DNA from: a virus
Strand: one strand, 5' to 3'
Virus record (IMG/VR): IMGVR_UViG_3300010885_000445
Location: 1-25,227 of that record
Length of the DNA: 25,227 bases
Positions 6,194 to 8,031 of the stretch are shown here, in pieces (positions within the stretch are counted from its first letter, which is position 1; each line of letters begins with the position of its first letter). The notes beneath the pieces are model-generated. The model saw nothing but the letters and a program-made list of their open reading frames with translations, was not told the origin of the DNA and ran no database searches. A program made the translations under genes and the position numbers.

Positions 6194-7114
6194 ATGGCTG
6201 GAATTATCACAACCGGTAGTCACCCTAAAGCACTTTGGCCTGGAGTCAAAGCGTGGTGGGGTCAGGTCTATGACGAACACAAAACTGAATACACTGATCT
6301 GTTTGATACTGACAACTCGCATCAAAACTACGAGGAAGATGTTCAACTGACCAGTTTTGGTTTGGTTCCGATTAAGAACCAAGGCCAAGCGGTTACGTAC
6401 GACTCAGAAGTTCAAGGCTTTGTTACCCGTTACACGCACATTGCGTATGCTATGGGTTACATTGTTACGAAAGAAGAGTTGGACGATAACCTGTACGAGG
6501 CGATTTCTCGCAAACGTGCATCAGCTTTGGCTATGTCTTTCCGTCAAACGAAAGAAAACGTTGCAGCTAACATCTACAATCGTGCCTTTAACAGCACGTA
6601 CAAAGGTGGCGATGCGGTTGAGCTTTGCTCGACTAGCCACCCGAATACGACTGGCGGTACGTGGGCTAATAAACCTTCCGTAGATGCTGACCTGAGCGAA
6701 GCAGCTCTTGAAGACGCAATGATTGCAATTATGGGTTTCCAGAATGACCGTGGTCTTTTGATCTCGGTTATGCCGCAAACCTTGCACATTGCTCGGAACG
6801 AGGTGTTTAACGCACAGCGTATTCTTCATAGCTCGTATCAGCCTGGTACTGCTAACAACGACATCAACGTGCTGAAATCTGGGAATTACATTCCTGGTGG
6901 CTTTAAAGTTAACCACTACTTTACGGCTGCTCATGCTTGGTTTATTCGGAATAGCATTCCTGGTAAAACTGGCATGAAACACTATGAGCGCGTTAGCATC
7001 ATGTTTGACCAAGACAATGACTTTGATACCATGAACGCGAAAGCTAAAGGGTATGAGCGTTATTCGTTTGGTTGGAGTGATCCCCGTGCTATTTGGGGTG
7101 TCAACGGCCCGTAA
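6194..7114 (+). CDS. Major capsid protein
   Basis: 306-aa main shell subunit. The sequence matches a family of phage capsid proteins that I recognise from the N-terminal HPKALWPGVKAWWG, the EEDVQLTSFGLVPIKNQG segment, the VTYDSEVQGFVTRYTHIAYA strand region and the RQTKENVAANIYNRAFN helix, expected to adopt an HK97-like fold. It is shorter than the P22 coat protein (about 430 aa) and shows no obvious inserted domain. GGGGAA provides the ribosome site. The gene is followed directly by a structured intercistronic region (7111-7163), consistent with separate control of the abundant capsid message. No long N-terminal delta domain or protease site is evident. Confidence 0.88.
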   Translation: MAGIITTGSHPKALWPGVKAWWGQVYDEHKTEYTDLFDTDNSHQNYEEDVQLTSFGLVPIKNQGQAVTYDSEVQGFVTRYTHIAYAMGYIVTKEELDDNLYEAISRKRASALAMSFRQTKENVAANIYNRAFNSTYKGGDAVELCSTSHPNTTGGTWANKPSVDADLSEAALEDAMIAIMGFQNDRGLLISVMPQTLHIARNEVFNAQRILHSSYQPGTANNDINVLKSGNYIPGGFKVNHYFTAAHAWFIRNSIPGKTGMKHYERVSIMFDQDNDFDTMNAKAKGYERYSFGWSDPRAIWGVNGP

Positions 7115-7135
7115 CAGTGATTTGTTACTAGTAAC
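7111..7135 (+). repeat. GTAAC/GTTAC inverted repeats with 12-nt palindrome, copy 1
   Basis: GTTACTAGTAAC at 7124-7135 is a perfect palindrome and occurs again at 8767-8778. GTAAC at 7111-7115, overlapping the capsid stop codon, can also pair with GTTAC at 7124-7128, so two mutually exclusive small helices are possible. The same pentamers form the closing helix of the three-way junction at 7267-7311. Role unknown: a DNA protein site or an RNA switch are both possible. Confidence 0.6.
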
Positions 7136-7163
7136 ACGGAGGGGGGTAAAACCCTCTTCGTGT
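7134..7163 (+). promoter_or_regulatory. G-rich hairpin after the major capsid gene
   Basis: Twelve consecutive pairs (7134-7145 with 7152-7163), two of them G-U, close a six-base loop GTAAAA. A run of six G lies at the top of the left arm. There is no U-tract: the sequence after the stem is ATTACTTAAAGGAG. That makes a classical Rho-independent terminator unlikely; an RNA processing or stability element, or a weak attenuator, fits better. Its first two bases belong to the palindrome before it, so the two structures compete. Confidence 0.55.
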
Positions 7164-7251: not shown

Positions 7252-7266
7252 CACTACACTCTGTAA

Positions 7267-7311
7267 GTTACGCTGCACAGACACAGCGTTCTATACAACA
7301 TAGAACGTAAC
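7267..7311 (+). ncRNA. Possible three-way-junction RNA element in the 5' leader of the gene at 7327
   Basis: Three helices fit with no unpaired base at the junction: 7267-7271 with 7307-7311 (GTTAC/GTAAC), 7272-7275 with 7284-7287 (GCTG/CAGC, 8-base loop), and 7288-7294 with 7300-7306 (GTTCTAT/ATAGAAC, 5-base loop). All 16 pairs are Watson-Crick. A competing form pairs ACGCTG with CAGCGT by opening the last closing pair. The element ends one base before TAAAGGAG, leaving the Shine-Dalgarno of the next gene free. The fold was made by eye; function (5' stabiliser, translation enhancer or regulator) is unknown. Confidence 0.5.
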
Positions 7312-7326
7312 TAAAGGAGTTTTACG

Positions 7327-8031
7327 ATGTCTACACCTACACGTTTTCCTGCTGGAGTATCAACCCAGAAAGTTAACCAAACTCTTGGTATGTTTGGTCA
7401 ACCTGATCCTACTGATCCTATTGTTGACTTCCATGATTTTCAGCAATACGTTGCTGCTGACTGGACTGTTACCAACACTACTACACACGCTACCATTGGT
7501 CTTACTGCTGGTGCTGGTGGTCTAATTTCTCTTGCTGGTGGTGCCTCAAGTGTTACTGGTGACATTGCTGCAATCATTTCTAACCCGTTAGATTTTAACT
7601 TTACTTCAGGCCAACAAGTTTGGTTCTACACTGGGTTTAAAGTTACTACGGCTGCTAACGATCAAATCCAACTTGGCATTACAGCAGCTAATAGCGCCCT
7701 GACTCCTTCAGATGGAATCTATTTTAATAAAGCTGCTGGTGCTTCTACGATTGATTTTGTAGTTCGTAAGTCGTCTACGTCTACAACTCAGTCTGCTGTA
7801 GCCACTTTGGTCAATGCTACTTTTGTTCGTCTTGGCTTTTACTACAACGGTAAAGACGCAGTAGATGTGTTTGTAAACGACAACAAAGTTTACTCACAAA
7901 CTGTTCTAACTAACTTGCCTACGTCAACTGCGCTGGCTCTTGCTGTTGGTCTTAAAGCTGCCGCTACTGCTCCTACGACAAGTGATCTTATTGTTGATTT
8001 CTTGATGGCCTCCCAAGACCGTGCGTACTAA
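7327..8031 (+). CDS. Beta-rich virion protein, unknown function
   Basis: 234 aa, rich in Thr, Ala, Val and Gly and low in charge. After an N-terminal segment (FPAGVSTQKVNQTLGMFG) comes DFHDFQQYVAADWTVT and alternating strand-like sequence, including VWFYTGFKVT, VRLGFYYNGKDAVDVFVND and SDLIVDFLMASQDR. This order resembles jelly-roll or concanavalin-like surface proteins of phage heads, but I cannot assign a family. AAAGGAG (7313-7319) lies 7 nt before the ATG and follows the three-way-junction RNA immediately. Its place after the capsid gene and its strong ribosome site suggest an abundant decoration or head-fibre protein; this is inference. Confidence 0.68.
   Translation: MSTPTRFPAGVSTQKVNQTLGMFGQPDPTDPIVDFHDFQQYVAADWTVTNTTTHATIGLTAGAGGLISLAGGASSVTGDIAAIISNPLDFNFTSGQQVWFYTGFKVTTAANDQIQLGITAANSALTPSDGIYFNKAAGASTIDFVVRKSSTSTTQSAVATLVNATFVRLGFYYNGKDAVDVFVNDNKVYSQTVLTNLPTSTALALAVGLKAAATAPTTSDLIVDFLMASQDRAY

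Follow-up and report, generated by a model that had tools for sequence, protein, structure and literature searches.

SD-sequestering operators, mRNA structures that occlude a Shine-Dalgarno (SD) sequence, are known from phages, where the MS2 coat operator and the T4 gp32 and RegA targets are examples, and from ribosomal-protein leaders. A compact, stable fold at the 5′ end is also known to stabilise a message. In the virion modules of phages, structured control RNAs are rarely recognised and almost never proven by covariation. The closest described RNA is Mu-gpT-DE (RF03012), a small structured element that lies between a Mu gpT-like capsid gene and the gene downstream. The downstream gene has its SD and start codon at the 3′ end of this RNA, and the SD is partly paired in an outer helix. 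That the model takes in this SD and start suggests that Mu-gpT-DE is a leader of the downstream gene rather than a trailer of the capsid gene. We know of no role for it.

Here we analyse a 45-nt three-way junction (3WJ) at 7267–7311 of the window, the whole 25,227-nt stretch of a 25-kb virus record. Its position matches that of Mu-gpT-DE: the extended element (7258–7320) lies after a gpT-like capsid gene and before a gene starting at 7327 (the 7327 gene). The folds differ, since Mu-gpT-DE is a single hairpin inside an outer SD-pairing helix, whereas in the window a gap-free 3WJ carries two hairpins. In principle they have the outer SD-pairing helix alone in common, and the sequences differ.

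Results

A gap-free junction that runs into the SD

The minimum free energy (MFE) fold of 7267–7311 is a 3WJ of -12.3 kcal/mol, which accounts for 73% of the ensemble. Helices P1, P2 and P3 comprise 6, 4 and 7 bp, with zero unpaired bases at the junction (Table 1). An earlier note on this DNA had described three stacked helices using all junction bases, as found here, with a P1 of 5 bp; P1 has 6 bp, formed by 7266–7271 with 7307–7312. The T that the note had read as the first base of TAAAGGAG in fact pairs with A7266 in P1. Comparison with shuffled sequence bore the fold out (z -4.1, with 0 of 200 shuffles equally stable). Folding the wider region 7252–7340 (z -2.5) adds an outer helix, P0, separated from P1 by a 3 × 3 internal loop and pairing the SD of the 7327 gene. 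An intrinsic terminator at the junction was rejected: there is no terminator-like site on the + strand, and the SD follows in place of a T run.

The note had also held such compactness to be unexpected by chance. Under a loose definition, gap-free 3WJs are frequent in any 25 kb and in random-like sequence, so that the fold alone is not decisive and the claim needs qualifying. However, of 23 gene starts examined across the window, only that of the 7327 gene has at least 14 total 3WJ pairs (17 pairs), and the comparative evidence below is decisive.

Table 1 Features of the junction and its surroundings, with loci of a further RNA type found in the same slot
Feature	Position	Strand	Evidence
Major capsid protein, HK97-type, Mu gpT-like	6194..7114	+	Pfam Phage_capsid_4, Mu-like_gpT (PF10124/PF25209); PHROG 371
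GC-rich hairpin after capsid gene, terminator-like, weak T run	7134..7163	+	sequence
Tiny basic ORF MSFEREKEKGKRPTPSVPKCPK, 22 aa, own SD; stop 14 nt before P1	7183..7251	+	sequence
P0 5′ strand ACUCU, anti-SD	7258..7262	+	MFE in context; anti-SD conservation in UGAC type
Internal loop 5′ side, GUA	7263..7265	+	2 nt (RA) in most relatives
P1 5′ strand AGUUAC	7266..7271	+	fold, covariation
P2 hairpin GCUG-CACAGACA-CAGC	7272..7287	+	fold, covariation, tree-mapped compensatory events
P3 hairpin GUUCUAU-ACAAC-AUAGAAC	7288..7306	+	fold, covariation, tree-mapped compensatory events
P1 3′ strand GUAACU	7307..7312	+	fold, covariation
SD AAAGGAG of 7327 gene; GGAG within P0	7313..7319	+	sequence; pairing by fold
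P0 3′ strand GGAGU, holds SD core	7316..7320	+	MFE in context
Controlled gene (proposed), 234 aa, predicted concanavalin/lectin-like jelly roll, SO2946-like C-terminal domain	7327..8031	+	Pfam PF22237, AF2
RNA loci of pelagiphage-type and lake phages	L142:3460-3540, L143:3975-4037, L139 gap before 3529, L423-L582 after capsid gene

The junction covaries across relatives

Relatives of the capsid protein and of the 7327-gene product were collected from IMG/VR. The gap before 7327-gene homologues repeatedly holds the same junction with different letters. In a sequence-only MAFFT alignment of 35 elements, with the minus-strand rows of A3 left out, 92% of alignment cells are paired and 12 of 18 pairs changed on both sides. 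The covariation score of this set is 0.242, against 0.067 after shuffling, and none of 500 shuffles reached it; the signal collapses once the partners are slid by 1–3 nt. On an independent capsid-protein tree we counted 29 double compensatory events, compared with a mean of 4.8 and a maximum of 13 over 200 permutations of the partners. Gap-free 3WJs of at least 13 pairs are present in 100 of 121 distinct regions upstream of the gene family and in 18 of 363 shuffles.

The near-invariant junction pairs read AC|GC..GC|GUU..AAC|GU. Among core pairs, G-U occurs six times and A-C never, which favours an RNA of the sense (coding) strand and disfavours an antisense or DNA-level origin. The core has no conserved unpaired positions of the kind expected for a riboswitch-type ligand pocket, and its loops are variable. 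Among homologues of the 7327 gene, the most divergent (L127, L144, L132 and L133) have no recognisable 3WJ.

The 3WJ is a real, covariation-supported, gene-specific cis RNA, and covariation refutes a chance origin. The check in homologous phages that the earlier note had suggested came out in its favour, the junction being kept with strong compensatory change. Its reading as a cis-acting structured RNA gains support from this covariation, from absence from Rfam (below) and from the position before one gene family.

One gene family follows the junction

All 101 motif-bearing loci found via the capsid or the 7327 gene lie at capsid loci and lead into one gene family. Scanning viral contigs for the pattern alone, independently of any gene, gave at least 117 matches. 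Among the 117 listed, 107 precede 7327-gene homologues and one is a genuine 3WJ at a cut-off contig end; the remaining nine look like chance, with poor helices or other contexts. The junction is common to more than 100 uncultured phage sequences, many of them aquatic phage contigs. It is absent from the named isolates examined, which have related capsid proteins, and so we found no cultured phage that carries it. Where close relatives, with capsid proteins 93–98% identical, have a different gene at this place, for a DUF1565-like protein of ~327 aa, an altered three-helix element replaces the 3WJ and, with its helices read by eye, seems to keep CUCU on the 5′ side and GGAG on the 3′ side.

A minimal 36-nt 3WJ with 4-nt loops (AGTTAC-GGGA-GAAA-TCCC-GTTC-GGAA-GAAC-GTAACT-AGGAG) precedes the homologous gene at ~4003–4038 of L583, a Rhodocyclaceae MAG contig (CAIYZZ010000241.1). 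Judging from this contig, part of the group may have a betaproteobacterial host.

The 7327 product scores 35.7 bits against Pfam PF22237 (cut-off 27). AlphaFold2 with 40 homologues predicts a jelly roll (pLDDT 82.8), and the model matches SO2946 (PDB 2a5z, TM about 0.55) and the legume and calreticulin lectins (TM about 0.5). Judging from the predicted fold and the place in the capsid module, the product is probably a virion protein or capsid decoration; that it is abundant there, as the earlier note had supposed, is conjecture.

The SD is paired at a fixed distance or within P1

The commonest layout, the UGAC type, is UCY-RA-UGAC...GUCA-AA-GGA. Its anti-SD, UCY, has a constant place, positions -5 to -3 relative to P1 (T 90%, C 86%, then C/T; n = 60), and most other flank positions are near random and unconserved. 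In divergent types, pairs replace the internal loop and the SD falls inside P1, as in CCUUAAC/GUUAAGG (L176, L221, L247 and L295), CUAAGAC/GUCUUAG-GAG (L128), UUUCUUAGAC/GUCUAAGGAG (L251) and UCUUUUGAC/GUCAAAGGA (L189).

Most of the family shows SD pairing. The SD has a mean unpaired probability of 0.30; the corresponding value for 150 control starts at the same loci is 0.49. The energy gained by the anti-SD duplex is modest, averaging -3.4 kcal/mol compared with -2.2 kcal/mol for shuffled flanks, and 5 of 98 elements pass individually at 5%; repression may therefore be mild. Pairing is also partial in many members, as the mean unpaired probability and the 5-bp P0 of the window indicate, so that the element may only tune translation.

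Short basic ORFs and other features upstream

In 77 of 85 distinct loci, an upstream ORF, mostly short and basic, terminates no further than 26 nt ahead of P1. The short ORFs have a median of 43 aa and a net charge of +6, and often carry M-S/G-F/Y-E-x-x-K-x-K-G-K-R-P; that of the window, of a type conserved across relatives, has no PHROG or Pfam match. Their closeness to P1 suggests possible translational coupling or a candidate RNA-binding partner.

Hairpins similar to that after the capsid gene of the window recur in relatives, mostly with T runs. Directly after the capsid stop lies a perfect palindrome, TGTTACTAGTAACA, at 7123–7136, and TTGTTAnTAGTAACA is conserved there in many relatives. 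No tRNA or tmRNA was found in the window.

Known RNAs and other RNAs in the same slot

Rfam 15 at gathering score gave no match to the 3WJ, in the window or in 18 loci with 3WJ-family genes, and at loose E-values (up to 5) no Mu-gpT-DE match to the 3WJ. The Mu-gpT-DE model (gathering 49 bits) likewise had 0 hits in the window and in these 18 loci, and a family search with it gave no window hit and nothing above its cut-off at 3WJ loci. Across all loci searched, the matches passing threshold were Mu-gpT-DE in Roseobacter phages and one tRNA. The Rfam scan, which the earlier note had proposed, thus leaves the fold uncatalogued there. We found no description of the element in the literature; the catalogue of Fremin and Kyrpides, reportedly a large collection of phage structured RNAs, may list it. 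As far as Rfam 15 and the literature searched go, the 3WJ is new as a family and known in kind.

In the Roseobacter phages CRP-901 and CRP-902, Mu-gpT-DE occupies the syntenic slot at 72.3 bits (L141:3467-3519 and L148:3478-3530). The CRP-901 gene downstream of it has no detectable similarity to the 7327 product.

A third RNA occurs in the same slot of HTVC023P-type pelagiphages and of the lake phage DSL-LC04 (Table 1), a hairpin with 5′ and 3′ pseudoknots. The hairpin encloses GACUGR-A-CAGAC-B-AGAGAC; loop A pairs with the 5′ flank and loop B with the 3′ flank at the SD, where the 3′ pseudoknot ends. The pattern has 38 matches, at least one of them by chance. The longest complementarities are 5.0 and 5.9 bp for the pseudoknots (4.1 and 4.3 bp after shuffling) and 7.9 bp for the hairpin (4.1 bp after shuffling), and the strands of both pseudoknots vary together. 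A terminator hairpin and a TTCACA-17-TATAAT promoter often lie ahead of this RNA, which has no Rfam match. It shares with the 3WJ the slot between capsid gene and next gene and an end at the SD; the architectures differ.

Discussion

Since the SD either faces an anti-SD placed at constant spacing on the 5′ side of the junction or lies inside P1, cis control of translation is the best-supported role of the 3WJ. The element overlaps the SD, as a cis-acting translational control structure should. The earlier note had offered message stabilisation, the setting of translation and the binding of a protein or ligand as functions; setting translation is favoured among them, the SD being paired through the conserved outer helix, and the others may apply as well. 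We consider it likely that the 3WJ is a conserved cis leader RNA that sets or switches translation of the 7327 gene, this being the best explanation of the data, and the element probably acts as an on/off or dimmer control of synthesis of the 7327 protein.

In such a mechanism, the gap-free junction would be a stable scaffold whose basal helix runs outward into the helix that holds the SD, and the P0/P1 stem would make the ribosome-binding site of the 7327 gene conditionally available. The 3WJ could then set or switch the level of the 7327 product, a probable virion-surface protein with a predicted lectin fold, against that of the capsid protein encoded immediately upstream. The pairing would lower translation in vivo, and some factor would relieve or reinforce it. 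Relief would most plausibly come from ribosomes completing the tiny basic ORF a few nucleotides upstream, and reinforcement from the binding of a phage protein, perhaps the tiny basic protein itself.

Those ribosomes might also suffice by themselves, melting P0 and fixing the ratio of the products as a passive brake, with neither ligand nor protein. The short stop-to-P1 distance in most loci and the ORF's own SD in the window fit this account. A plain hairpin would do as much, however, which leaves the near-invariant junction pairs unexplained, and in L129, L176 and L221 the closest ORF found upstream is the capsid gene or stops ~50 nt or more away. We regard a purely passive brake as unlikely.

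Somewhat less likely again is an element acting at the 5′ end or in processing, which would protect the mRNA from decay or mark a cut site or new transcript start, with SD pairing as a side effect. The terminator-like hairpins after the capsid gene of relatives agree with it, as do sigma70-like promoters read by eye in the gap of L136 (TTGACA-17-TATAAT) and L115. A weak TAnAAT-like box at -18 to -13 of P1 points the same way; with this box, transcription could begin at or within the anti-SD, and in the window P0 would then lie outside the RNA. Yet a stabiliser needs no SD pairing, and the anti-SD is fixed in distance or built into P1. Moreover, a promoter scan of the window found one weak site, at 7005–7032 inside the capsid gene, and none in the gap between the capsid gene and the 7327 gene.

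A DNA-level feature that is palindromic by chance, such as a site of recombination, packaging or protein binding, would suit the near-symmetry of the element, many copies of which the covariance model also scores on the opposite strand; the G-U excess over A-C and the tie to the start and SD of one gene family make it very improbable. A chance fold or compositional artefact, for which the abundance of loose junctions in 25 kb might speak, is negligible given the stability, the covariation, the compensatory events and the recurrence upstream of the gene family.

Control of translation of the 7327 gene by the 3WJ would offer a likely explanation for Mu-gpT-DE and similar RNAs too, namely control of the gene after the capsid gene. 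Being small and gene-specific, and occurring in many contigs of aquatic phages, the 3WJ lends itself to testing in a simple reporter. A bolder picture, which we hold to be possible but doubtful, is that one worldwide phage lineage has filled the mRNA slot between capsid gene and neighbour with at least three unrelated RNAs (the 3WJ, the Mu-gpT-DE hairpin and the double pseudoknot), each of which ends at the SD; selection on capsid-module stoichiometry would in that case be strong enough to maintain a dedicated RNA switch, and the tiny basic protein would bind the 3WJ.

Unlike the MS2, T4 and ribosomal-protein operators, the element described here is a 3WJ with no unpaired junction base, and it has at most a candidate regulator. 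Like them, it places folded mRNA where ribosomes bind to a probable structural gene's message, where a protein could potentially open or close it.
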